Below, piece by piece: positions 43,129-60,989 of a stretch of 64,000 nt of DNA. This DNA comes from Patescibacteria group bacterium (lineage in GTDB: Bacteria; Patescibacteriota; Patescibacteriia; 2-12-FULL-60-25), in contig JAQURS010000003.1 in assembly GCA_028715505.1 (NCBI GenBank), forward strand, positions 50,510-114,509, in the 5' to 3' direction. Every line of letters starts with the position of its first letter. The first letter of the stretch is position 1. The position numbers and the translations under genes are program-made. The notes below the pieces were generated by a model. That model saw nothing but the letters and a program-made list of their open reading frames with translations. It had not been told where the DNA came from and did not search any database.

Positions 43129-44091
43129 TTAATTAAGGGCCTTTTGCGGTCGTTTATGGGCCGCTTGATAGACTTTTTTGAAATAAGTTGGCATGAAAGC
43201 CTTGTATTTATTGAAAATCGGGTTTGGCAGATACTGGACAGACCTGATCACCTTTCGACATTGAACTGAACCGCAAGTGCATCGGACGCGCCATCGAGGA
43301 TCAGCCTCAGTAATTGAATCGTCAATTAATATCTCTTCGTCGGCTTTGATGGAACGCATGGCGACAACCTGGACTTTTTTGCGCAAACCCACGTTTGGTT
43401 TGCAGGAATGGCGCATTGACCACCAAGGGTTGTATCGCAAAGGAATCATCCAAAGATTGTATCCAAGCCCTAGCCATTTGAAGCCGATTTTATAATCAGG
43501 AGCTTTGGAATAATTTATGATAGGTCCTTTCACGGTAAAAAGCATCTCGCCTTTTTTAATTAATTTTTTTGCGAAAACAGCAAGTTTTTTATCTTTAAGT
43601 TCTCCCACGTAAACTTTTTGTTGCAGATATTCTTTACGTAAAAATGGTTGGATGTAATTTTGATATTTTCGAAAAAGTCTTTCGGGCAAGTACTGGATGC
43701 CTCGTATTACGCCCCGGCAAGAAGGGGAGTGACAACGGCAATGAATTTTCCATTGAGTTGATGATCCTTCGGTACAGGAATAATCAATAGTTATCTCTTC
43801 CCCAGCTTTAATCGTACGAAGAGCTACGACCATTGTAGTTCCTTTTAATATGGCATTTGGTTCGCAAGAGTGGTTAAGGAAGTTCCAAATATCGCCACGA
43901 TCCATTATTCGCCAAGTGTTATGTCCAATATTGAACCAGTTCATTCCAATGCGCGGGCCGGGTGGGGACGGGAATTTAATCGTTGCGCCTTTCAGCTTAA
44001 GTAAGATTTCGCCTTTTTTAAAACTTCGTTTGGCGAAGACCCCCCGTCCGGCGATGGGGGAAGATTTAATAACTAGCCAGTTTTTTTCCAT
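43129..44091 (-). CDS. protein with two tandem SET domains
   Basis: A 320-aa protein. Domain 1 (about 1-135) has GRGVFAKRSFKKGE, NFLNHSCEPN (about 68-77), GEEITIDYS and a post-SET Cys group (HCRCHSPSCRGVI). Domain 2 (about 155-300) has AVFAKKLIKKGE, SMRHSCKPN, DEEILIDDS and CTCGSVQCRKVI. In domain 2 the NHS Asn and the DY Tyr are replaced (RHS, DD), so it may be inactive and bind instead. SET proteins are lysine methyltransferases that use S-adenosylmethionine. The start is 1 nt after the MFS stop, same operon. Substrate unknown. Confidence 0.85.
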   Translation of the reverse strand: MEKNWLVIKSSPIAGRGVFAKRSFKKGEILLKLKGATIKFPSPPGPRIGMNWFNIGHNTWRIMDRGDIWNFLNHSCEPNAILKGTTMVVALRTIKAGEEITIDYSCTEGSSTQWKIHCRCHSPSCRGVIRGIQYLPERLFRKYQNYIQPFLRKEYLQQKVYVGELKDKKLAVFAKKLIKKGEMLFTVKGPIINYSKAPDYKIGFKWLGLGYNLWMIPLRYNPWWSMRHSCKPNVGLRKKVQVVAMRSIKADEEILIDDSITEADPRWRVRCTCGSVQCRKVIRSVQYLPNPIFNKYKAFMPTYFKKVYQAAHKRPQKALN

Positions 44092-46015: not shown

Positions 46016-46023
46016 ATGGGATC

Positions 46024-46029
46024 ATTATA
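46024..46029 (-). promoter_or_regulatory. -10 box of the 45509-46015 gene, near-leaderless
   Basis: TATAAT on the minus strand, 8 nt before the ATG at 46015. Confidence 0.55.
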
Positions 46030-46055
46030 ACATAGTTGAACAGGATCCGCAGTCC

Positions 46056-46084
46056 TCGACAAAAGCGGGCTTTTAGGCTAAGCT
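46056..46084 (+). promoter_or_regulatory. promoter of tRNA-Ser(TGA)
   Basis: TCGACA (46056-46061), 17-nt spacer, TAAGCT (46079-46084), 17 nt before the tRNA. Confidence 0.5.
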
Positions 46085-46101
46085 ACGCACACAATTTGTC
46101 A

Positions 46102-46191
46102 GGAGAGGTGGCAGAGTGGTCTAATGCACCGGACTTGAAATCCGGCGTGGCCGCAAGGTCACCGTGAGTTCGAATCTCACCCTCTCCGCCA
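46102..46191 (+). tRNA. tRNA-Ser (TGA)
   Basis: A 90-nt class II tRNA: acceptor GGAGAGG/CCTCTCC, discriminator G, encoded CCA, anticodon loop TTGAAAT, long variable arm (CGTGGCCGCAAGGTCACC). Confidence 0.95.
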
Positions 46192-46229
46192 AAAGCAAAA
46201 GGACCGGTGCAGCTGGTCTTTTTGCTTTT
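46192..46229 (+). terminator. terminator of tRNA-Ser(TGA)
   Basis: AAAAGCAAAA-GGACC and GGTC-TTTTTGCTTTT arms around a short loop; it starts at the base after CCA. Confidence 0.7.
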
Positions 46230-46292
46230 GTGGGTGGGATTCGAAGGGACCTGGCTTGCCTTTGGGAAATTCGCAGATTAAAATGGAAACAT

Positions 46293-46799
46293 ATGCCAAA
46301 ATACATGGAGAATCCTTCAATACCGCAAATAGCTGACCAGGAACCTCATCATGATGAGAACTCTGGCGATAAAACGCGAATGTCATTTGATGAAATACTA
46401 GAAGGCTTCAGATCCTCTTTTAAATCTTGGGAAATCGAGGCTGTTGATTATTACCTTGATGATGATCCGCTCAAATCACAAACTGAAGCCATCATTAGCG
46501 CCTTTAAATTCAAGAAGTTCGACCGTTTTCTCAACCCCGAAACCCGCATGTTCGAAAAGCCTGATGAGGAATGGATAAAGGATGAGATTTTTAATATCAG
46601 GTATCCCAATGCTTTAGGCCATCCGCAAAAAGGTCATTTCGCCGTGGTGGCAGATTCAGTGAACCCAATTGGAAAGGTGACTGGTTTCGGGTGGGTCGAA
46701 TCTTTCGAGGACAAGTATGATGCCGAACGCTGCGCGTACATCATTCGTCGGATCAATCCCGCGCACAATCCCGCGGTCGTGGACAATTCAGAATGGTAA
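46293..46799 (+). CDS. hypothetical protein, 168 aa
   Basis: The ATG at 46293 (or 46305) is used; the frame is open to inside the tRNA. The N terminus is polar and His-rich (IADQEPHHDENSGD). The middle is helical (FDEILEGFRSSFKSWEIEAVDYYL, quoted in part). The C-terminal half has beta-type segments (GHFAVVADSVNPIGKVTGFG). No family recognised. Confidence 0.6.
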   Translation: MPKYMENPSIPQIADQEPHHDENSGDKTRMSFDEILEGFRSSFKSWEIEAVDYYLDDDPLKSQTEAIISAFKFKKFDRFLNPETRMFEKPDEEWIKDEIFNIRYPNALGHPQKGHFAVVADSVNPIGKVTGFGWVESFEDKYDAERCAYIIRRINPAHNPAVVDNSEW

Positions 46800-46840
46800 G
46801 GCTGAATAATCTCAAAATTACTGATATTCGTAGTTAAATA

Positions 46841-46883
46841 AAAAACCCGTGACAGGGGATGGCGAGGGTGCCGTTGTCACGGG
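46841..46883 (-). terminator. terminator of the 46903-47283 gene
   Basis: Minus strand CCCGTGACA and TGTCACGGG arms (9 bp perfect), then TTTTTTATTTA. Confidence 0.8.
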
Positions 46884-46902
46884 CGATGAGATTGCCGAGC
46901 TT

Positions 46903-47283
46903 CTAGAGCTTGAGGACGAACGTTCCTTTGGACTCCGTCAACCTGCCAGACTGGCCATGCGTTGTGCAGCCGAGAGCTTCGGAGACCCGGCCCGGTCCAT
47001 TGAACACGTCGCCGTTGATGCTGATCTTTTTGACCAAGATGCAGCCACCGGCGTCCATGCCGTCTCGACACGCGATGAGAAAGAGGATTCCCCCGCGGTA
47101 CCTGGGAAGGTAGACGCCTCCCGGTTGCATCGAGATGATCGGGCTGTAGAGCGGAGTGTCGTTATCGCTGCGAGAGTAACCCTTTGCCTCGAGGATTTCG
47201 GCTTCCAAGCCGCCGATACGTATTTTCTTACCGACGGCCGACTTGGCTGCGCTGACGAAATTCTGATGGAAAAAAGCATTCAT
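46903..47283 (-). CDS. short methylpurine-DNA-glycosylase (MPG)-like protein, 126 aa
   Basis: The order of motifs resembles the AAG/MPG fold: AKSAVGKKIRIGG, then AEILEAKGYSRSDND (the position of ETEAY-x-G-x-x-D), MQPGGVYLPRYRGGILFLIA (the position of GG-x-Y-V-Y ... G), CILVKKI and GPGRVSEALG (the position of GPG-K-L-x-x-A-L-G). It is much shorter than the usual 190-200 aa, and the catalytic Glu context and the later Arg are altered, so it may be a diverged or non-catalytic base binder. AAGGAG precedes the ATG. It neighbours the HTH-repeat and SNF2 genes. Confidence 0.55.
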   Translation of the reverse strand: MNAFFHQNFVSAAKSAVGKKIRIGGLEAEILEAKGYSRSDNDTPLYSPIISMQPGGVYLPRYRGGILFLIACRDGMDAGGCILVKKISINGDVFNGPGRVSEALGCTTHGQSGRLTESKGTFVLKL

Positions 47284-47319
47284 TTGGTGCTCCTTGTGTG
47301 GGTCTGTTGGTGCTGCTCT

Positions 47320-47348
47320 GGATTACACCAGATATGCGGTTTTGTCAA
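47320..47348 (-). promoter_or_regulatory. promoter for the MPG-like gene
   Basis: Minus strand TTGACA (47348-47343), 17-nt spacer, TAATCC (47325-47320). Confidence 0.55.
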
Positions 47349-47351
47349 TAT

Positions 47352-47381
47352 AAAAACGCGCCTCGAGAGTCTCGACGCGCG
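47352..47381 (-). terminator. terminator of the HTH-repeat gene
   Basis: Minus strand CGCGCGTCGAGA and TCGAGGCGCG arms with a short loop, then TTTTTATATT. It ends 3 bp from the -35 of the next promoter. Confidence 0.75.
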
Positions 47382-47385
47382 TGAG

Positions 47386-48903
47386 TTAGCGAAGGAGCTT
47401 AGTGAAGGCAGAAGTGCTGCCGCTTTGCTTGAAAGCCGCGACCGCACTCGTGAACCTTTGTTCCGTCCAGCGGGTAGTGATCGCCTTCCAGAGATCGTCC
47501 GACACGATGTCCTTGCGCTTCTTCCGAAGCACCTTCAGGACCTTGGCCATGACTGGCGCGTGGCTCGTAAGGACGGCCTTGGCGACTGGGTGGGCGGGAC
47601 GCTTTTTGGCAATCAAGTCGGCGCAGACTCGTTGGAGGTCTGAAAGGGAATAGAAGAGCTCGAGTCTGCCAACGTGGGTTTTAGCATAGAGTTTCCGACA
47701 GCTGCTAGCTCGCTTGGTTACGGTTTGCGCGTTTACTCCTAAAAGCTTAGCCAAGGGGATTCTCAATCCCCAAGTTTCTCCACCAAGCTTGAAATACCCA
47801 GTTCGGTTGGCCTGAGGCGCATTTAAGTAATCGCTACAAGCCTTCGTCACATCGGAAAGAGGGTAGAAGGTTACAGGTCGTCCTTTGTTTGTTTTTCCGA
47901 CCAGTTTTCTACATGAACCGATTTTTTCAGCAATCCTTTGCCTATGTAGACCCAGTCGTTTAGCCAATGCTATTTTCGTTCCCCATATTTCCCTGCCATG
48001 CTTAAAGAATCCAGTCCGGTCGGCCAGTGGGGCGTTCAAGAGTCCCTTGCAGGCTCTCTTTATATCCGAAAGTGCATAGAAAGCGGCTTGTGCTCCTCTG
48101 GGATCGATTCCGGTACGAGAACGGCAGGTAGGAGCATGCTTGTATATGCACTGACTACAAAGCCGTAATTTCCGGGAAAGCGAAGGTACCGTTCCCCATA
48201 CCTCACCATCGATTTTAAAGAAGCCGTTACTCTTCGCTTGAGGAAACTTCTTAAGTAGTGACGCGCAGGTTTCTCTTACATCGGACAGTGCATAAAAGGT
48301 TTGAGGTCGGCCACTACGATCGAAGGCTACTCGCTGCCTGAGCTCACGCGCTTTTTTTTCAATTGGCTTTCTTCCAATTTTCAGAGACTCGCAGATCGCG
48401 TACAGAGTTCCCCATTCTTCATTCTCTAGCGATATGAAGCCATCCTTACCGGCTTTGGGCAGGTCTTGTTTGAAGACGGCGCAGGCTTTTTCCATATCCG
48501 AGAGAGAGTAAAAAACAACATGGTTGCCCTGGTTCACTCTGCCCATTAGATGTCTACATTTCTTACGATTTCGAGCCACAGGCTTTCCGCCAATCTCCAA
48601 CTTTGCGGCTATTGCGCTAACAGTACCCCACGCCTCACCGTCAGCCACGAAGAAACCGCTTTTATCTGCCTGCGGCAAGGGCTCAAGTAGCTTTTTGAAC
48701 TCGTCCAGCTTTCCGGATTTCTCGAATCGCTTAAGGGCCCGTTCCAAGTCGTTTGCAGACCAACGCTGGAGAATGTTCTCCCAGAGTGAGTCGCTGGTGA
48801 TATCCCGGTGCGTTTTTCGAAGTGCACGAAGCACAGCGACAAGGCGCGGCGCTTGCTTGACCAAATCCTCTCGGGAGAGGCTGGTCTTCTTGATGTTGAT
48901 CAT
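47386..48903 (-). CDS. protein of five HTH-like repeats with matching end domains
   Basis: A 505-aa protein; the ATG at 48903 has AAGGAGAGG upstream. Residues about 76-433 are five repeats of about 72 aa, each with GFF-x(4)-GE-x-WGT, a helix pair like an HTH (IALAKRLGLHRQRIAEKI), CRKL-x-GK, GR-x-x-TFY-x-LSD and AC-x-x-L. N-terminal (about 10-75) and C-terminal (about 445-505) domains resemble each other: VAVLRALRKTHRDITSDSLW and AKVLKVLRKKRKDIVSDDLW. This is a modular array with caps, probably nucleic-acid-binding. I know of no described family. It is divergent from the SNF2-methyltransferase gene across a shared 200-bp promoter region. Confidence 0.75.
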   Translation of the reverse strand: MINIKKTSLSREDLVKQAPRLVAVLRALRKTHRDITSDSLWENILQRWSANDLERALKRFEKSGKLDEFKKLLEPLPQADKSGFFVADGEAWGTVSAIAAKLEIGGKPVARNRKKCRHLMGRVNQGNHVVFYSLSDMEKACAVFKQDLPKAGKDGFISLENEEWGTLYAICESLKIGRKPIEKKARELRQRVAFDRSGRPQTFYALSDVRETCASLLKKFPQAKSNGFFKIDGEVWGTVPSLSRKLRLCSQCIYKHAPTCRSRTGIDPRGAQAAFYALSDIKRACKGLLNAPLADRTGFFKHGREIWGTKIALAKRLGLHRQRIAEKIGSCRKLVGKTNKGRPVTFYPLSDVTKACSDYLNAPQANRTGYFKLGGETWGLRIPLAKLLGVNAQTVTKRASSCRKLYAKTHVGRLELFYSLSDLQRVCADLIAKKRPAHPVAKAVLTSHAPVMAKVLKVLRKKRKDIVSDDLWKAITTRWTEQRFTSAVAAFKQSGSTSAFTKLLR

Positions 48904-48937
48904 GAACCTCTCCTTGGTTGTCGATGAACAGTATGTA

Positions 48938-48966
48938 AACATAGCCAAAAATTGAGTTTTTGTCAA
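48938..48966 (-). promoter_or_regulatory. promoter for the HTH-repeat gene
   Basis: Minus strand TTGACA (48966-48961), 17-nt spacer, TATGTT (48943-48938). Confidence 0.65.
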
Positions 48967-49014
48967 GGATGCTCAGTTACGAAAAATTATCTCGATATGT
49001 GAGCCTTAATGTGA

Positions 49015-49043
49015 TTGACATTTAGGCTAAGACATGCTAAAAA
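49015..49043 (+). promoter_or_regulatory. promoter for the SNF2-methyltransferase gene
   Basis: TTGACA (49015-49020), 17-nt spacer, TAAAAA (49038-49043). It is back to back with 48938-48966, 48 bp apart. Confidence 0.6.
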
Positions 49044-49100
49044 AGGCCGTTAGGCAATTTGGCCTGACACGCGGTCTTTACAGTCAAACAGGAGGCTTCC

Positions 49101-52100
49101 ATGGCATCTCTCAAAGAGCGACCGGCATCGATTCGTTTTCGAGTCGCGAGCGATCTGAATCGGGAGATGCTGAGAGGCATCACCGATCCAACGGAACGGC
49201 GCGAGTTCATCAATGACTTGCGCGAGCATGAGTGGGTGGTTTTTGCGCCACAGCAGATAGATTTCGAACGTTTTGAAGACCTGCTCCAAAAAGACAAGCG
49301 CCTTCGGGCTTACCTCGAGCGCGAAACAGACCCGGTTCTCATTGCCGAATTCCTAACGCGCAATTACCCGCACATCTTCCTGAGCATCGAGCACGTCTTC
49401 GAGATCTACACGGATTGGAAGATCCGCAGCATGAGATCTCACGGATATTGCCCGGGCGAACGTGAAGAATGGCGCGCGCCAGACCATCTACTCACCGCGC
49501 TTCGCGATTCCGAGCTCATGATGGTTGCAAGGCGATGGCTGCGTAAGGAAATAAAACACCTGAACGCTGACCCTAAGGGTACTTTGGCGGAAGTGCAACG
49601 TAAGCTACGGGCGGAAAAAAACCCCAAGCAACGTAAGCTGCTCGAGCACCTTGGCGGACTCATGAAGAACCTGCTGCAGGAACGGTATCCTGAGTTCAAC
49701 CGGGAGATCGTTAAGGGTTTGCCTTTCCCGAGCATGCATGTCCGTCATTGGATCAACCAAATCCAAGAACGGGGCAACGCGTTGCTCGTCGGAGACGTGG
49801 GAACCCAAAAAACATCGGCGGCCGTGGTCGGACTTGAGCGGCTTGGCCGAAAGGCCGTGATCGTTGTATGTCGCTCGTACGCGGCCGATATGTGGGCCGA
49901 TGAGATCAAACGGTACTATCGCCAGACGATGGACCCGTTGGTTATCCACGGAGCGGACGAATACGAAAGCCTGAGACGCATGAAGCCGTCTGATCTCCGA
50001 CACCGTCGGTTTGTCATCGTCGGCTACGGAGGAATCCAGAACGGCTTTGAAAACGGCGAGGACGAAGGCACGTACGGAGAACAGCTCACGGACCTGCTTT
50101 GCGCGATGAAGCCGGACGCCCTCATAATCGACGAGGCACACGCCATCAAAGGCATCGGCGATCGCAGCCGAAGGGTCTTGAAGATCGCGCAGCTGCCGAG
50201 CGTCCGCAACCGCGTGATGCTATCGGCTACTCCGTTCGAGAATCACCCAAATGAGATGGCGCATCTTGCGACCCTGTTGGACCCGCAGGCGTTCCCGACG
50301 GAAGAAGTATTCCTCGCCATGTGCCACGACAATCCCAGGATTTTCTTCGGGCTGATGTCCCAGCGCATGTGCGATTACTTCGCACAAGAAGACGTCCTCG
50401 ACCTGCCGCCGACCAATCTGGATATTTACCGATTTTTTCCGACGGTAAGACTGGAATGTTCGGCGGACATCAAGCGCATCCATTCCGCGATTCTGGACGA
50501 CGGTTCATGCGAACCGCGTCAAACGGTTTTGCGGCTCATGCAATTCCTTTCCGTGCCGTACGCGGCTCGGGATTGGTACCCGAGCATGAAGGATGCTGAT
50601 TGCTTCCGTGACCCGTTGGCAAATCCCAAGTTGGAGCATCTGCGCCGCGAAGTGGCCGAACGGATTAAGACCGGCAAGGTCGTCATCGCCAGCGGCATCT
50701 TCGCAAGTGGGATTACCCGAGCCATGGATCAGAAGGACGGTGATCCGGAGGTCGACGAGATCGCTTCGCTTTTTGAGCGATGGTTCCCGGACAAAGTCCT
50801 CCGCATCGACGGTTCGACAAAAACCGGCGACGCGATCGACGGAAGAAAAGCAATCCAGGCGCGATGGCGAAACGATCCCGATGCGCGCATCCTGATCGCT
50901 TCGGTCCCGGCAACGTCCGAGAGCCTGAACTTCACGCTGCGGCGAATTCCGGGCAGAGTCGAAGGGATTACGATCTACTATCTGGCTCAGCCTTGGAAGC
51001 CCACGCAATACCTCCAGTTCAACGGACGGTTCCGCCGACCCGGCGCGGAAGTGCCGGTGGAAGTATTTTCGCTCATCGTGAACGGCACGGCCGATGAAGC
51101 CCTGCTTGAACTCAATGAACGGAAATGGCGGAATTTCCTCATCGGCGTGCACGGCATGCCCATCATGACCGAAGAGGAAGACGCGCTCGAACGGGCTACT
51201 TTCAAAAAGCTCGTGCTCACGCCGAACAGTTGGCTGCGCATAGCTTTCGATTGGATGCTCGGCTTGGGCGAAGAAGGCATCCGCCGGTTCCTTGGAGGGA
51301 ACTTGCGGGAGTTGCCCGTGGCTGAAACCCTGGCAACTTATTACCTTCAGACGGAAGATCGCGGAACTTCAGGACATGTCTCCCGCCTTATCGTGCCGAT
51401 TCTCAAGCGTTGGCGTGAGACTGGCACGATTCGGGATTGGGAAGATGTCCTTGACGTGGGCTCCGGTCCCCTCATTCTGGAAAGAAAGTTGAACGCGCCG
51501 CTTCATGCCATCGAGATCAATCCCAAGATGGTTGAAATCGGCCGTGCGCATTCTTACCAGGGTGGGAAAAACGCGATCGTCGGCGGGGCATCCCGGATGC
51601 CAGAGGCATGGTCTGGCAAGTTTTCCCTAGTCGTCGCCTCATTAATCATGGATCTGACGAGCCGCAAGATCCCCAAGGACGGCGGCTTTGCGGAACGTGT
51701 GAAAGTCCTTCAAGAGATCCATCGTGTCCTTCAACTCGACGGACTCGCGTGGGTCATCCTGAAGGAAAAATGCTTTGACCGAGGAAGCTTCGAAACATTC
51801 TTGAGTATTCTGAAGCATTACGGTTTTGAACCGGTCGAGCCGTGGTGCAACCGAATCGAGGCCGTTGACCATCGCACGCATCATTTTGCGGTGTGGTCGC
51901 TCTTGCTGCGCAAACGGACCGAGCTTCATGACGCAAACCCGCCCGGTCCACTCTTTCTCTACGAGCTTTCGGGGGAGAGGAGCGTTCGCAAGCGGACAGG
52001 CGTGCGATCTGTGCAAACGACTGCAGAGCCTTCACAGGTCGTTTTGCACGAGAAGTTCGCCATCCGTGATGCGGCAGGCGATCTGCTTTCCGTAGAAATG

Positions 52101-52346
52101 GTGACGGATGTGGTCGAACCGCCAGGCGCGGGCATTGAGAAACTGCATGCTGGATTGGTCAAACATTTCAGCATTCGGAATCGTATGCTCGCGTCGAGAT
52201 TACGACAGGAATTGGAACGTACCCGTCCGCGATCCTTGAACGAACTTAAAGATGTTTGGAAAGGCCTTCGGAAATACGGCGATATTCCTCGGATCAGCTG
52301 GGCTGGGCTGAGCGAATTCGCCCGTTTGTACTTCCAAGTCGGCTGA
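49101..52346 (+). CDS. SNF2-type helicase fused to class I methyltransferase, 1081 aa
   Basis: AACAGGAGG precedes the ATG. Residues 1-205 are an unassigned helical N-terminal domain. About 205-660 form a SNF2-like helicase: motif I GDVGTQKT (231-238; Gln replaces the usual Gly), II DEAHAIKG (344), III LSATPFENHP (374), V region IASVPATSESLNF and VI QFNGRFRRPG (about 637). About 760-900 form a Rossmann methyltransferase with motif I VLDVGSGPLILE (about 783) and acidic motif II HAIEINPK. The motif IV place reads VVASLIMDLTS, not NPPY, so an N6-adenine or N4-cytosine DNA methylase is not indicated. Residues 950-1081 are unassigned. A chromatin-like remodeller that also methylates, perhaps for defence, is inference. 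Confidence 0.85.
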   Translation: MASLKERPASIRFRVASDLNREMLRGITDPTERREFINDLREHEWVVFAPQQIDFERFEDLLQKDKRLRAYLERETDPVLIAEFLTRNYPHIFLSIEHVFEIYTDWKIRSMRSHGYCPGEREEWRAPDHLLTALRDSELMMVARRWLRKEIKHLNADPKGTLAEVQRKLRAEKNPKQRKLLEHLGGLMKNLLQERYPEFNREIVKGLPFPSMHVRHWINQIQERGNALLVGDVGTQKTSAAVVGLERLGRKAVIVVCRSYAADMWADEIKRYYRQTMDPLVIHGADEYESLRRMKPSDLRHRRFVIVGYGGIQNGFENGEDEGTYGEQLTDLLCAMKPDALIIDEAHAIKGIGDRSRRVLKIAQLPSVRNRVMLSATPFENHPNEMAHLATLLDPQAFPTEEVFLAMCHDNPRIFFGLMSQRMCDYFAQEDVLDLPPTNLDIYRFFPTVRLECSADIKRIHSAILDDGSCEPRQTVLRLMQFLSVPYAARDWYPSMKDADCFRDPLANPKLEHLRREVAERIKTGKVVIASGIFASGITRAMDQKDGDPEVDEIASLFERWFPDKVLRIDGSTKTGDAIDGRKAIQARWRNDPDARILIASVPATSESLNFTLRRIPGRVEGITIYYLAQPWKPTQYLQFNGRFRRPGAEVPVEVFSLIVNGTADEALLELNERKWRNFLIGVHGMPIMTEEEDALERATFKKLVLTPNSWLRIAFDWMLGLGEEGIRRFLGGNLRELPVAETLATYYLQTEDRGTSGHVSRLIVPILKRWRETGTIRDWEDVLDVGSGPLILERKLNAPLHAIEINPKMVEIGRAHSYQGGKNAIVGGASRMPEAWSGKFSLVVASLIMDLTSRKIPKDGGFAERVKVLQEIHRVLQLDGLAWVILKEKCFDRGSFETFLSILKHYGFEPVEPWCNRIEAVDHRTHHFAVWSLLLRKRTELHDANPPGPLFLYELSGERSVRKRTGVRSVQTTAEPSQVVLHEKFAIRDAAGDLLSVEMVTDVVEPPGAGIEKLHAGLVKHFSIRNRMLASRLRQELERTRPRSLNELKDVWKGLRKYGDIPRISWAGLSEFARLYFQVG

Positions 52347-52366
52347 CCAAGCACCTTCCTTATGGT

Positions 52367-52391
52367 CGCATCCCCAGATGCGGCTTTTTTA
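52367..52391 (+). terminator. terminator of the SNF2-methyltransferase gene
   Basis: CGCATC/GATGCG stem with loop CCCA, then GCTTTTTTATTTA. Confidence 0.8.
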
Positions 52392-52463
52392 TTTACAAAA
52401 CTATACAATACCTTGCAGGGCACTAATGGGTCGCGTATCTTTTTCCGCCAGAGGGCATCAAAA

Positions 52464-52490
52464 TAAAAAATAGCGACTAGAGGTGTCGCT
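52464..52490 (-). terminator. terminator of the dipeptidase gene, overlapping its end
   Basis: Minus strand AGCGAC/GTCGCT stem, then ATTTTTTATTTT. The stem includes the stop codon and the last codons. Confidence 0.65.
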
Positions 52491-53628
52491 TTGGAATGTG
52501 GCCTTTCTTCATCCGGTAGTCTTTCGAGAAGGCGAGGTTGGTTCGGATCCAAGTCTTGGCGTTTTCGGCCAGGACTTTTCGGATGTGTTCGTCCGAAAAA
52601 TGGAACCGGCCAGCCAATAGGTCGCCCAAGCGCGAGCAGACTTCCTTGGGATTCTTCATCCCAATCAGGAAAGAAGGCGGAACCCCGCCGAAATCGGCGC
52701 CAATAGCCAGCGAGTCGATCCCGTGCGGGAACTGAGCCAGGCGGTCGATCGTCTCGGCCAGTTGATCCTGGTTCTGGAAAAAAGGACGCGAGACGCCTAG
52801 ACCGACGATGCCACCCAGGCTCATGAGGCGCTTGATTTCGATGTCCCTGAGCCCGCGTTTTTCGGCTTTGTCCGCGAAGGCGGGATCCTTGGCGATGGCT
52901 TCGGATGGCGCCCCGTGGGTGTACGCAATTTGCGAACCCTTCGCGTAGTCCTCGGCGTAGTCGAGAATATCCACGCGCGTCTGCGGAAGGGAGTGCGCCA
53001 GGTCGACTATCAGGCCGTTACGGATTATTTGGTCGACCGCGTAGTAGCCGTACGGCGTCAGGCCGTCTTCGGCCAAAGGCGTATGGTATCCGTACTGGAT
53101 CCCGAAGATCCTGACGCAGTTCATGACGAGCGATCCCACCATGGAATCGATGTCATATTCGTTCAGGGTCTTAACCCCGTCGAGCAGATGAAGGCCCTCG
53201 ATGGAGACGACGACTGAGGTGGCCGCCGAATCGGCGATGTCTTTGCCGCGTTGGACCAAGCGCACGCCGTCCAGCGTCCAACGCGCGACCATCCAGGCCG
53301 TTTCCTCAGCGACCTTCTCCATAGCCGTCCTGTCAAGCTTGTTCCATTCGTCGTAGATGCTGGCCACCACGAATCCGTATTGGTCTTTGACGGCCCAGCC
53401 TACGAGGGTTTCGTAGGCTTTTTCCGACATCCCAGCCCCGGTTTCGTAGGCAGCCTCGCAGTCCTCTTGCTCGACTCCGAACTGGAGCATTCTTTGCAGG
53501 ACAGAGTGTTCACCGTTCCGCCCGATGTCAGGGTAAAGATCCGGGTACTGGCTGTACTCGCATTCTTGTTGCCGCTGGAACGGAAGTCTAACGTCGTCGT
53601 GCAGTGAAGAGAGCTTGAGTTCACTCAT
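52477..53628 (-). CDS. membrane-dipeptidase-like (M19) metallohydrolase
   Basis: A 383-aa protein with the M19 signature order: HDDVRLP at the start (counterpart of the H-x-D metal pair), VVVSIEGLHLL with the bridging Glu, a GLTPYG segment, LIVDLAHS and AYTHGAPS with metal His, and LAIGADFGG. No signal peptide is seen, so it is probably cytosolic. Peptide or D-amino-acid dipeptide hydrolysis is the family function; the substrate here is unknown. GGAGGAAGG precedes the ATG at 53628. Confidence 0.85.
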   Translation of the reverse strand: MSELKLSSLHDDVRLPFQRQQECEYSQYPDLYPDIGRNGEHSVLQRMLQFGVEQEDCEAAYETGAGMSEKAYETLVGWAVKDQYGFVVASIYDEWNKLDRTAMEKVAEETAWMVARWTLDGVRLVQRGKDIADSAATSVVVSIEGLHLLDGVKTLNEYDIDSMVGSLVMNCVRIFGIQYGYHTPLAEDGLTPYGYYAVDQIIRNGLIVDLAHSLPQTRVDILDYAEDYAKGSQIAYTHGAPSEAIAKDPAFADKAEKRGLRDIEIKRLMSLGGIVGLGVSRPFFQNQDQLAETIDRLAQFPHGIDSLAIGADFGGVPPSFLIGMKNPKEVCSRLGDLLAGRFHFSDEHIRKVLAENAKTWIRTNLAFSKDYRMKKGHIPKRHL

Positions 53629-53751
53629 TCCTTCCTCCTACGGGGCACTTAAGAGGATATTTTGAAAAAAGTCAAGAATCTGAGCAATAAAAATAGACCC
53701 GCACACGAGGTCAGATGGTTTGATTTGTGTTTGGGTCTGAGTAGGGGGGGG

Positions 53752-54120
53752 CTAGGCGGAGAGATCGAGCTGACTGGGTCGGAATCCGAGCGATCTCCAG
53801 ATGATTGGAAACGACTTACATCGCCGGTGGAGCGCCCAGAAATCAGCGGCCAGTTCGGGCGACCGGCCCGGAATATCCAGGCGATCGCCGATCTCCTTGA
53901 ACAGGAAAGTGAGCTCCTGGGAATTGGTGCCGTGTTTCAAGTAGGACCGGGCTCGTCCGATCTGGACGATGCCGCAAGCGTCGCCGCAGATTTCGAAGAA
54001 ACAGTTAGCCAGCGTGAGGCTTTCATGGACGGTCGGAAGCAGGTTCTCAAACGTGCCTACGGACAAGGCGAGATTCAGTTGACGCTTTTTGGCGTCGGTT
54101 ACCAACTGGGCTAATTCCAC
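53752..54120 (-). CDS. hypothetical protein, 122 aa
   Basis: A GTG start at 54120 with CAGGGGG upstream. Soluble, mainly helical; three cysteines (ANCFFEICGDACG) in the middle and a basic Trp-containing C-terminal part (AADFWALHRRCKSFP). No family recognised. The opposite-strand frame at 53662-54114 is less natural. Confidence 0.55.
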   Translation of the reverse strand: MELAQLVTDAKKRQLNLALSVGTFENLLPTVHESLTLANCFFEICGDACGIVQIGRARSYLKHGTNSQELTFLFKEIGDRLDIPGRSPELAADFWALHRRCKSFPIIWRSLGFRPSQLDLSA

Positions 54121-54260
54121 TATTGCCCCCTGTAGTTGAGGTTGAAAGTTACGAGTTGACCCTATTCTACTACGGACGTAGTGCAGGTAAACCCACGATG
54201 TGGATAAGCTATTTATCAGAATCCAGCGCTCTTGTCTAGAGCTCAGGTGCGTGGCACCCT

Positions 54261-57724: not shown

Positions 57725-59563
57725 CTACAGGTCGTTCATGGCGTAGATATACTTGAAACCGCCGGTGCAAAGCCCGTTAAAATAGTTGGCCATGGAAGAT
57801 TTAACCTGTATTCCGGGACCTGCCCTGAATTCCGCCTGTCCTTGCCAATTCAAGAAAACAGCAGTGCCCTGGTTAGGATCCTGCGCGGGTCCTCCGGATT
57901 CGATGGTTTCAAAAGGCAAACCCATTTTGCCCACGTATAAGAACATGTGGGGGATGGGCGCGCCTTTACACATGAACTCGATGGTGGATCCGAATGGAAG
58001 GCTGGGTAAAACATTGCCGAGGAATTCCTCTTTGCTCAAAGCAAAAGCCGTGTAACCGGGTAAGAGAGTTCTTTCGCAGATCGCATCATCTCGGGTGTCC
58101 GCATTGCAACCCTCACTGTTACATGAGACGGTTTTTTTTGTCTTTTTATTGACACACTGAATCACTTCAACCGCCGAGCGGACTGGTTGTCCATCCTTAA
58201 ATTCGCTTTCGGCCACTGCCTGCGCCTGAACTTTGTAGACTACAGAGGCGTTGTGCTTGATACCGGCGCAACCCAAAGCTAAGCCTACGAATCCGCTGCA
58301 ATCCGCCCCGAACAAATCGTTGCATTTTATGGGGCAAACGTAATATTTCGTGAAGTCGGTCTTCAAAGCGTTGTAGCAAGGGCCTTTGTTCCTGTTTTTT
58401 TGCGCGTCAGCCAAAATGGTATTGCCTTTTAGATCTGAATTGGAAAGATTAATGCCTTCACTGCTCGAGCAGCTGCCTTTGGCAGGCGTCGAGTCAAAAG
58501 AAAAATCTTCAGGCAGGCCGCAAGCCTCTTTGGTTTCTTTGGACAACCAACCTTTAGCTCCCAATAAACAGAACAAATGTCCCGTAAAAGGCGTCGCGAC
58601 TTTGATGGTGCTACCGTAGCCGGTTCCGCCTCTGACGTAGACCGAGCCGTAAGGCCGAGCTTCTTTGGCCCAGGCCTCGACCACTGCTTTTAAAGCTTCT
58701 TTCGTTCCACCGCCTTTGCAGGCCGCTTTCATCCTTGTTCCGGAGCCTCTGGCTTCGGGATGTTTCATGGCCGGGCATTCCTCGGTGCAAATGACGTCCG
58801 TAGGTCCGCTGCCCGTATCGGAATAACCCGTCGAAAAGGCAAAGGGTTCGCTTTTGACGATTGGGACCATGATCGACGGTAGAGTCGTTAAGTTAGGGTT
58901 GATGTTAGCCAGGATCACGTAAGCGCCTAGGACCAGGGCCAAGCCGATCAGCGCGTCTTGAATAATCACTTTAGCGTCTTTAATTTTTGCTCCGGTACCT
59001 GAGAGGATGTAAGAAATTCCACCGTAGACCAGGACCACGGCCGCGGCCACCAGGGCGATGCCGATTAAGTATTTCTGAAAACCCGCCACGTATTCGGCCA
59101 GGAAAGGCACGTAAGCCACGCCCTGGTCCCTGTAGACGGGGGAGAGATTAACGCCGGGAATGGGAATATTGAGCGTAGGCGCCGCGTCGCTGGGGTTGGT
59201 GGGGGTCGTTCCGCTTTTGGTACCGGGTTTTTTCGGCAAGCTCGCGAAATTGAAACTGTTGCTTTCGACCGGCGAATTGATGCAGATGCCGCTCGCGTTG
59301 CCCTGCGAAGCTTGGGAACAAGTTGGAGCGCTGATGCAATTCGAGGCTTTGAGGCCGGCGTCAGGCGATTGTTTCAGGGTTGAACAATCTAAGCCCGAAG
59401 GGTAGTTGATGCAAAATTTTCCGTTAACGTCGGGATGCGTGCAGACGCAACAATCCGCGCTTGCCACCAGAGGAAACAAAAGAATGACCGCCAGGCTGAG
59501 CAGAACGGCTAATGGCGCGGTCCGGCTTTTATGATTTGGCGCTTTGAGCTTTGCACGTATCAT
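57725..59563 (-). CDS. VirB2-like pilin segment fused to NlpC/P60-like hydrolase
   Basis: A 612-aa protein: an N-terminal helix/signal, a Cys module (DCCVCTHPDVNGKFCIN ... CSTL), then two helices typical of VirB2/TrbC pilins in Patescibacteria (YLIGIALVAAAVVLVYGGISYIL; IIQDALIGLALVLGAYVILANINP, quoted in part). The C-terminal half contains GADCSGFVGLALGC (Cys422) and PHMFLYVGKMG (His539), the Cys and His of NlpC/P60 peptidases. Local wall cleavage for the secretion machine is a likely role (inference). The start overlaps the end of the upstream paralog by 35 bp. Confidence 0.8.
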   Translation of the reverse strand: MIRAKLKAPNHKSRTAPLAVLLSLAVILLFPLVASADCCVCTHPDVNGKFCINYPSGLDCSTLKQSPDAGLKASNCISAPTCSQASQGNASGICINSPVESNSFNFASLPKKPGTKSGTTPTNPSDAAPTLNIPIPGVNLSPVYRDQGVAYVPFLAEYVAGFQKYLIGIALVAAAVVLVYGGISYILSGTGAKIKDAKVIIQDALIGLALVLGAYVILANINPNLTTLPSIMVPIVKSEPFAFSTGYSDTGSGPTDVICTEECPAMKHPEARGSGTRMKAACKGGGTKEALKAVVEAWAKEARPYGSVYVRGGTGYGSTIKVATPFTGHLFCLLGAKGWLSKETKEACGLPEDFSFDSTPAKGSCSSSEGINLSNSDLKGNTILADAQKNRNKGPCYNALKTDFTKYYVCPIKCNDLFGADCSGFVGLALGCAGIKHNASVVYKVQAQAVAESEFKDGQPVRSAVEVIQCVNKKTKKTVSCNSEGCNADTRDDAICERTLLPGYTAFALSKEEFLGNVLPSLPFGSTIEFMCKGAPIPHMFLYVGKMGLPFETIESGGPAQDPNQGTAVFLNWQGQAEFRAGPGIQVKSSMANYFNGLCTGGFKYIYAMNDL

Positions 59564-60989
59564 AGTGTCTTTGCTTTATGTCCAGTAGATTTTTGACTCT
59601 CGAACAAGGAATGCCGGCCGAAGACGAGTCTTGGCAACCGGCCCAGGCTTTGAAGACGCTCATGGGATCACTGACCGGATCGCCACCAGGCTTGCCGCCT
59701 TTCCAAAAGGCCCCGGATGAGAGCAAGGCATCGATCTGTCCTTGCTCGGTTACAAGTTCGGCCACCGTGAAACAACGACCGTTGACCGTGTAACCGCGCC
59801 AACCGTTCGGACATTTGGGCGAATTTGGGAAAATGGTCAGGCCGCCCCCGAAACCGTGAGAAAATCTCCAATCGATTCCAAAATCAGGCGGGCTGCCAAA
59901 CTGGGGCGCGTCGTCGTTTTCGACGATTTTACCGGTGCTTTGGACCCTGTAAGAGGCGACGCGATGGCATTCGTCTTGGGCGCTCGTGCAACTGCTGGGC
60001 ATGGTTGGAATATCCGCTTCAAAAGCCTTGCCCGAGTAGTACTTGCGGCTGCGTAATAAATCAACCCTGGATTGGGGCAAGACGTTGGCGCGCCCGGCGT
60101 ACCAATTTTCGTCGTGTCCGACGATCATCTTGCCTCCGGATTCGGCCATGAGCACCGCCCAAGCAATGCATGGGTCTATTCCTCTTTTAGCGGCTTGTTT
60201 TTTTACCTCATTCAACATTTCGGCCGGGGTTGGCATGTTGCGGTCCGCTCCGAGCAGGGAAGCGGCGGCCGAATATTGGTCGCCGGACAGGATGGAAAAA
60301 GGCTGGGGCTGAATATTCTTTAGTTTTAAGGCTCCGAAGTTGGCCGTGTTGGGATTCATGTTCGCCAAGATGACCGTGGCGGAAAAAATTAAAACCAGGC
60401 CGATCAAAGCGTCTATGATGACCTTCTTTCCTTCTTGCACTTTTAAGCCCGTGCCGGAGAGTAAATAAAGCCATCCGCCGTAAACCAGCATAATAGCCGC
60501 TGCCACCATGCCCAATCCAATGAGCAAGGCTTGGAAAGCTTGGACGTACTGGGCGAACATGGGAACGATTGTCTCGCCCGAGGCGTCCGTATAAGGAGCG
60601 AAAAACGTAAGGCCGGGGATGGGAATATTCAGTTTGAAATCCAAAGTTTTGGGAGCGGGAGGCGATTTAGCTTCTTTGTAACCGGGCAGCGAAGACAGTT
60701 TAAAACTTATTTCGTCGGCCGGCTCGCTCAGGCATTGCCCGGCCGGTATTTTTTTGCAGGGATTGGCACTGACGTCTTTGGCGCAGGATGAGGCTTTGAC
60801 GTCGGCGTTGGTCGAATTATTTAAGCTCTCGCAAGCTGTCTGGACATTCTGCAGGCAAAACTTGCCGCTTTGCAGCGAAGGATGCGAGCAGATGCAGCAA
60901 TTGCCGGCCGCGAGAACAGGGGATGACCAAGCCAAAAGGGCGGCCGTCAGCGCGGCCGCTCGGACCAAGGCTTGGCTGGAATGGCGCAT
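59529..60989 (-). CDS. VirB2-like pilin segment fused to lytic-transglycosylase-like domain
   Basis: A 486-aa paralog of the next gene in its first half: signal peptide (ALTAALLAWSSPVLA), Cys module (NCCICSHPSLQSGKFCLQN), two pilin-type helices (LLIGLGMVAAAIMLVYGGWLYLL; IIDALIGLVLIFSATVILANMNP, quoted in part). The C-terminal half has GIDPCIAWAVLMAESGGKM with Glu283 in the position of the lytic transglycosylase acid, and several Trp/Tyr-rich stretches. So two wall-cleaving chemistries are attached to the same pilin-like base in one operon. Confidence 0.8.
   Translation of the reverse strand: MRHSSQALVRAAALTAALLAWSSPVLAAGNCCICSHPSLQSGKFCLQNVQTACESLNNSTNADVKASSCAKDVSANPCKKIPAGQCLSEPADEISFKLSSLPGYKEAKSPPAPKTLDFKLNIPIPGLTFFAPYTDASGETIVPMFAQYVQAFQALLIGLGMVAAAIMLVYGGWLYLLSGTGLKVQEGKKVIIDALIGLVLIFSATVILANMNPNTANFGALKLKNIQPQPFSILSGDQYSAAASLLGADRNMPTPAEMLNEVKKQAAKRGIDPCIAWAVLMAESGGKMIVGHDENWYAGRANVLPQSRVDLLRSRKYYSGKAFEADIPTMPSSCTSAQDECHRVASYRVQSTGKIVENDDAPQFGSPPDFGIDWRFSHGFGGGLTIFPNSPKCPNGWRGYTVNGRCFTVAELVTEQGQIDALLSSGAFWKGGKPGGDPVSDPMSVFKAWAGCQDSSSAGIPCSRVKNLLDIKQRHYDTCKAQSAKS

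Follow-up and report, generated by a model that had tools for sequence, protein, structure and literature searches.

A Patescibacteria locus combining an SNF2-methyltransferase fusion gene with genes for a capped DNA-binding array protein and a protein of predicted glycosylase fold

Genes of the locus

The locus described here lies in a stretch of 64,000 nucleotides (hereafter the window) from a Patescibacteria group bacterium (GenBank assembly GCA_028715505.1, contig JAQURS010000003.1, positions 50,510 to 114,509 of the forward strand), whose genome comprises 1.07 Mb in 28 contigs. An earlier reading by a model that worked without database searches (below, the sequence-only reading) had singled out three neighboring genes, namely a fusion of an SNF2 helicase with a class I methyltransferase, a divergent gene with five helix-turn-helix (HTH)-like repeats between similar end caps, and one resembling a shortened methylpurine glycosylase (MPG), and had proposed that they form a system for DNA recognition, modification and remodeling. 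All three open reading frames (ORFs) were found where that reading had placed them, with the array and MPG-like genes divergent from the fusion gene. In window numbering, the features are as follows:

46828..46885 (limits approximate), minus strand: terminator-like hairpin with a long loop (CCCGTGACA/TGTCACGGG followed by TTTTTT), recognized by visual inspection and unscored by the terminator scan
46903..47283, minus strand: protein of predicted MPG/alkyladenine-glycosylase (AAG) fold, 126 amino acids (aa), without the C-terminal tail seen in relatives
47386..48903, minus strand: putative DNA-binding array protein, 505 aa; N-cap, five winged-HTH repeats, C-cap
48904..49100, between the divergent genes: intergenic region of about 200 bp, with a promoter-like TTGACA-17-TATGTT for the array gene and an AGGAGG ribosome site for the fusion
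49101..52346, plus strand: SNF2 ATPase-class I methyltransferase fusion, 1081 aa

At full ORF length the array gene spans 47386-48966 (minus strand), but the more likely start is the ATG at 48903, supported by a GGAGAGG ribosome site together with a -35/-10-like match. The array gene precedes the MPG-like gene on their common strand, with 102 bp between them, and the terminator-like hairpin appears to close this array-MPG transcription unit. The GC content of the trio (0.49-0.58) is like that of the surroundings, and a compositional island was therefore rejected.

Distribution of the fusion and its linkage to the MPG-like gene

Ten members of the fusion family were identified, i.e. that of the window, six retrieved by genome searches and three (loci L031, L034 and L036) by a scan of genome contigs; all stem from Candidatus Uhrbacteria and related Patescibacteria, and these ten core sequences underlie every statement on the family made here. 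In an evenly drawn sample of 381 genomes of the class, seven harbored the fusion. No homologue was found in 50,697 phage records, 72,556 plasmids, or viral contigs, and carriage by phages or plasmids was rejected on these grounds. In the fusion tree the split between clade A (window, G220 and L031) and clade B is fully supported. The tree is at odds with taxonomy: the approximately unbiased (AU) test rejected a grouping of the window copy with the copy from the same genus (G005; p 1.3e-6), as well as a grouping of three copies from one family (p 8e-5). Horizontal movement of the fusion is the simpler reading, because an old duplication followed by many losses could yield the same tree but presence is patchy.

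In a panel of 38 genomes, those with MPG-like matches were precisely the four that also had strong matches to the fusion (4/4; chance 1.4e-5). Three loci (L031, L034 and L036) stop at contig ends inside or just after the fusion and were excluded from downstream-neighbor counts; at all seven assessable loci the MPG-like gene lies near the fusion, and no fusion locus was found without it. In five genomes (G037, G010, G321, G342 and G005) it follows the fusion at a distance of 66-499 nt, and it lies at the end of the G220 cluster (L065 3763-4485). The fusion and the MPG-like gene are demonstrably linked.

In one subclade, each of the four loci (L026 4439-6421, L027 380-2332, L034 6428-8257 and L036 5977-8274) also has a gene of 609-765 aa directly upstream of the fusion, which possibly encodes a further subunit.

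The array protein and its caps

The array protein consists of the following parts, all on the minus strand:

48676..48879, minus strand: N-terminal cap module (clade A); G220 array proteins have homologous C-caps
47599..48669, minus strand: five tandem winged-HTH repeats of 71-72 aa each
48454-48669, minus strand: repeat R1
48238-48453, minus strand: repeat R2
48025-48237, minus strand: repeat R3
47812-48024, minus strand: repeat R4
47599-47811, minus strand: repeat R5
47389..47580, minus strand: C-terminal cap module (clade A), with five predicted helices (block predicted local distance difference test score, pLDDT, 86-97)

The five repeats and the similarity of the end caps, both noted in the sequence-only reading, were borne out. 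With a profile built from the repeats themselves, each repeat was recovered at an independent E-value (i-E) of 1.8e-32 or lower, and the two caps, both predicted to be all-helical, are 40% identical. Predicted structures were built on shallow alignments throughout; in the model of R5 together with the C-cap (mean pLDDT 94.5), the repeat forms a predicted winged HTH with two helices and a two-strand wing. Excisionase (Xis), pSK1 Par, BldC and MerR regulators were prominent near the top of a fold search against the PDB, with Z-scores up to 5.6, which suggests a MerR/excisionase-like winged HTH as a fold class only, given the modest Z.

The caps recur outside the window. G220, the genome with the closest fusion among the genome-search results, encodes eight capped array proteins, seven of them within the cluster and one on a separate contig, and its MPG-like protein also ends in a clade A cap. 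The two window caps together matched the G220 C-caps at an hhalign E-value of 9.5e-10, with a reciprocal hmmsearch match at i-E 4.9e-6, and one of the G220 array proteins (530 aa) is capped at both ends as in the window. The units between these caps belong to HNH_repeat (PF18780), a family unlike the window repeats: three G220 array proteins score 49-54 bits (cut-off 26) and two more fall just under it at 25, and Pfam gave no PF18780 match in the window array. Identity among G220 p2-p6 amounts to 66-79% in the caps, against 25-34% in the arrays as aligned globally, a procedure in which out-of-register repeats lower the array identity somewhat. A constant cap joined to a variable array is the pattern expected of exchangeable recognition subunits.

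Clade B has a different tail, common to MPG-like proteins, the HNH-repeat array of G342, and small proteins (G010, G005, G321 and G342), with i-E values from 6e-9 to 2e-4. Across the 381 class genomes, cap matches at E<1e-8 were found only in G000 and G220, and tail matches at E<1e-6 only in five clade B genomes, so that strong matches are confined to genomes holding the corresponding fusion clade. This clade-confined sharing is the strongest evidence that the parts form one system, and that the role of cap or tail would be to attach subunits to the core. The sequence-only reading had suggested counting conserved neighborhoods of all three genes; the fusion and the MPG-like gene do stay together. 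Neither of the outcomes named there as refuting it, rare co-occurrence of the homologues or a full-length match of the fusion to a known non-defence family, was obtained for these two genes. The tie of the array protein to them is supported by the shared cap module, not by an orthologous repeat array.

That the three are chance neighbors forming no system would agree with the opposite strands of the MPG-like gene and the fusion in the window, and with the array protein having no full orthologue at the other loci. Co-occurrence and the shared caps speak against it, and for the fusion and the MPG-like gene it is already contradicted; we consider it extremely improbable.

Two further occurrences of these modules were observed. 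The window-type repeat is present in three copies fused to an SF2 (ResIII-type) helicase in G030 (L028 4760-6871, minus strand). On contig C9 of G220 (L066 1064-7737), a reverse transcriptase (RT_XIII-like in PADLOC, 2e-45) is followed by an ATPase and a large gene, by eye a MoxR/VWA pair, and then by a capped HNH-repeat array protein, making this possibly a second conflict locus that shares the cap module.

The SNF2-methyltransferase fusion

The fusion comprises a family-specific N-terminal region, an SNF2 ATPase and a C-terminal class I methyltransferase, with the following motifs:

49791..49814, plus strand: altered Walker A motif GDVGTQKT, Gln replacing Gly before Lys (Tyr in clade B)
51333..52025, plus strand: Methyltransf_11-type domain, S-adenosylmethionine (SAM)-binding motif present, NPPY-type motif absent
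51447-51470, plus strand: SAM-binding motif VLDVGSGP, normal in form
51630-51662, plus strand: motif IV region VVASLIMDLTS, no NPPY-type motif

Both halves of the gene were recognized by Pfam, the SNF2 part as SNF2-rel_dom (E 6e-15) and the methyltransferase part as Methyltransf_11, slightly above the cut-off. The top PDB match of the family profile was Sulfolobus SNF2/Rad54 (3e-13). No one known family matched the fusion over its whole length, and its N-terminal domain gave no match to the small tail proteins.

The altered P-loop is kept by every relative whose sequence spans it, as GTQKT in clade A and as G[ST]YKT in clade B, and is therefore a feature of the family and not a sequence error. 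The remaining ATPase motifs are intact, i.e. DEAH, SATPFEN and QFNGRFRR (with the motif VI Arg), so that the protein should not be taken to have lost ATPase activity.

As the sequence-only reading had pointed out, the [DN]PP[YF] motif of adenine methylases is absent from the window fusion, and the motif IV region of its relatives likewise lacks PP[YF]. The closest solved structures by sequence are SAM methyltransferases that are not named as DNA methylases. Because of these two findings, a role in base methylation is at best something we infer, and identity as a DNA amino-methylase was rejected, there being neither motif nor profile match.

The same properties would suit a regulatory or chromosome-organizing remodeler, in which the arrays would bring the SNF2 motor to chosen promoters or to the origin region, with a protein as the substrate of the methyltransferase. 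The copies in G220, G321 and G342 lie near a tig-dnaA-like region (gene names assigned by eye), but such origin-side placement is restricted to one family (f46) and the other loci differ. The multiplication and divergence of arrays in G220 and the horizontal transfer also suit a role in conflict better, and the remodeler appears quite unlikely.

The MPG-like protein

The resemblance to MPG is faint in the window protein (Pfam E 0.01) and clear in its G220 relative, which scores 54.2 bits against Pur_DNA_glyco (PF02245; cut-off 27). An AlphaFold (AF2) model of the G037 relative (locus L033), 50% identical to the window protein, has a mean pLDDT of 80.8 and aligns with human AAG (3uby_B) over 113 residues at a Z-score of 12.6 and a root-mean-square deviation of 2.3 Å. 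The modeling thus points to an AAG fold for the MPG-like proteins. The position of the catalytic residue was located by alignment:

47182-47184, minus strand: codon of Lys34, at the position of the catalytic Glu125 of human AAG

In this alignment column the window has K, three relatives (G220, G010 and G342) have E, two (G037 and G005) have Q and one (G321) has D; Tyr159 and the His136 loop of human AAG are absent from the MPG-like proteins. The E125Q mutant of human AAG retains DNA binding and loses excision activity (PMC5363859). Because Glu125 is replaced by Lys and this mutant binds without excising, we infer that the window protein acts as a base-flipping reader, and excision activity may be found in some of the relatives.

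The shortness of the window protein is probably genuine: a truncated or frameshifted tail was rejected, since a reading of the downstream DNA in three frames shows none and the terminator-like hairpin follows directly.

A glycosylase fold raises the possibility of a specialized response to alkylation damage, in which the MPG-like protein senses damaged bases, SNF2 clears or exposes them, the methyltransferase signals or regulates, and the arrays tether the whole to chosen loci. Besides the fold, the catalytic Glu kept in G220, G010 and G342 agrees with this, as do a recG gene close to the window copy and, in G010 and G037, uvrB-like genes close to the respective copies (gene names by eye). The Lys in the window and the Gln in G005 and G037 argue against it, given the behavior of the E125Q mutant; moreover, presence in only 7 of the 381 genomes and a taxonomy-discordant tree would be unusual for housekeeping repair, and the adjoining repair genes vary from locus to locus. 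We regard a damage response as unlikely.

Genomic surroundings

The window trio occupies the interval from recG to a tRNA-Ser/DUF5673-like region (46016-54260), which varies within the genus: all four other genus members read there (L083-L086) have other genes and none of the trio. In G001 the interval holds a SWIM-SNF2 helicase, in G008 ABC-transporter-like genes, in G005 another gene and in G006 one small gene. The G220 cluster includes an AbiE pair and a PDC-S01 candidate defence ATPase, and a DndB/DpdB-like gene lies beside the G321 copy, with a homologue beside that of G342. No integrase or phage gene was identified among the neighbors scanned.

Beside the fusion in the window lies a gene for a Peptidase_M19-like protein (52477-53628, minus strand; Pfam 2e-14). 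It was rejected as a fourth member, having no homologue in eight genomes of the same genus or at the other loci, and probably belongs to the same variable spot. Also close to the locus is a gene for a 320-aa protein with two tandem SET domains (43129-44091, minus strand; Pfam SET 4.5e-25). Further away, a T4SS_pilin domain match (PF18895) was found in the protein at 59529-60989 (minus strand).

A proposed mechanism

The explanation we favor is a machine of several subunits that was acquired by horizontal transfer and is directed at double-stranded DNA, with exchangeable specificity subunits, which would most likely serve in conflict with foreign DNA; we hold the case for it to be evenly balanced. 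In such a machine, the winged-HTH or HNH-type repeat array would first bind its chosen site, as an exchangeable specificity subunit similar to HsdS. Contact through the cap would then set the SNF2-methyltransferase core on the DNA, the clade-specific cap or tail being what would join the subunits to the core protein, and ATP-driven movement of SNF2 along the DNA would serve to scan or remodel it. The MPG-like subunit would subsequently flip or sense a base, in several members, that of the window included, probably without excision. Lastly, the methyltransferase would mark the DNA or a partner protein. The interpretation given in the sequence-only reading is partly supported: recognition and remodeling fit the winged-HTH/HNH arrays and the SNF2 motor, respectively, while modification is no more than a possible function, as the methyltransferase falls in the Methyltransf_11 group and has no base-amino-methylase motif.

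Several observations weigh against this explanation. A repeat-array protein is present in only three of the seven assessable loci; small tail-bearing proteins take its place in G010, G005 and G321, and G037 has neither. The MPG-like protein of the window is without the tail. Although the two models show a similar order of helices, sequence comparison does not establish that the clade A cap and the clade B tail are homologous (hhalign E-values of 0.01-0.07, at low probability). Neither a nuclease, in agreement with the sequence-only reading, nor another obvious killing effector was detected among the tested neighbors of the window trio (Pfam and PADLOC), and none of the ten window neighbors scanned had a PADLOC match. 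Since no nuclease was found, the output, if this is defence, may be marking, blocking or recruiting instead of cutting.

More tentatively, the multi-subunit machine favored above may represent a new modular immune or epigenetic device, in which an SNF2-methyltransferase core recruits, via a common cap, exchangeable arrays and a glycosylase-fold base reader, and in which a single genome may keep a repertoire of arrays (eight in G220). If so, it would be a protein-only, sequence-addressable DNA machine with naturally swappable arrays of small winged-HTH/HNH repeats, and one in which a repair glycosylase has been recast as a non-cutting base reader. It would also offer testable partners, through the docking of cap and core, for a pairing of SNF2 and methyltransferase that is known from phage and defence proteins.

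Comparison with known systems

The gene set matches no known defence or repair system, in line with the sequence-only reading, which saw no match to any system known to it, and no paper on such a gene combination was found in the open-licence literature. With DISARM the locus shares an SNF2-type ATPase and a methyltransferase in a patchily distributed locus, and the helicase core of the fusion has a weak DrmD match (E 2e-8 to 4e-8). The DrmD score, however, is 31.9 bits against a cut-off of 950, and the window methyltransferase lacks a base-methylase motif. PADLOC found no drmA, drmB (DUF1998) or drmC (PLD) in the ten neighbors, the MPG-like protein or the array protein, nor did these occur among the Pfam matches of the neighbors. 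To our knowledge, AAG-fold and array subunits are foreign to DISARM. DISARM, Dpd and BREX were all rejected, as only the SNF2 core matches and DrmD and DpdE remain far under their cut-offs.

The DarB-type polyvalent proteins of phage P1 and conjugative elements likewise combine an SNF2 ATPase and a methyltransferase in one chain. The DNA helicase family phrog_62, which we take to be the DarB family, matched the fusion at aa 39-675 (3.5e-35), which would suit a module, related to the DarB-type proteins, by which a mobile element counters restriction or protects itself. Coupling of SWI2/SNF2 ATPases to methylases is typical of phages and conjugative elements (PMC5512222), which agrees with such a module, but the methylase partner in DarB-like proteins is an adenine methylase (PMC5512222), whereas that of the window has no adenine-methylase motif. 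The locus also has extra subunits. Together with the lack of any phage, plasmid or viral copy of the fusion in the collections searched, and of integrase or phage genes among the neighbors scanned, this makes a counter-restriction module decidedly unlikely.

The accessory subunits each resemble a known family in part. The MPG-like proteins share with AAG/MPG (Pur_DNA_glyco) the predicted fold, and the G220 member exceeds the Pfam cut-off, but the catalytic Glu is not conserved and the relatives bear a C-terminal cap or tail. In the G220 and G342 arrays, the repeats are like the homing-endonuclease-associated HNH_repeat; here, in contrast, they are capped or tailed with no HNH nuclease attached, and the window array uses a MerR/excisionase-like repeat instead.

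Type I restriction-modification differs in its components. PADLOC and Pfam matched no HsdR, HsdM or HsdS in the three proteins or the neighbors scanned, so that the HsdR nuclease and an HsdM-type methylase are both missing, and winged-HTH/HNH repeats stand in place of the target-recognition domains of HsdS. In outline, however, the two would work alike, each having a motor, a methyltransferase, and specificity subunits that can be exchanged, in which the parts for joining stay constant and those for recognition vary.

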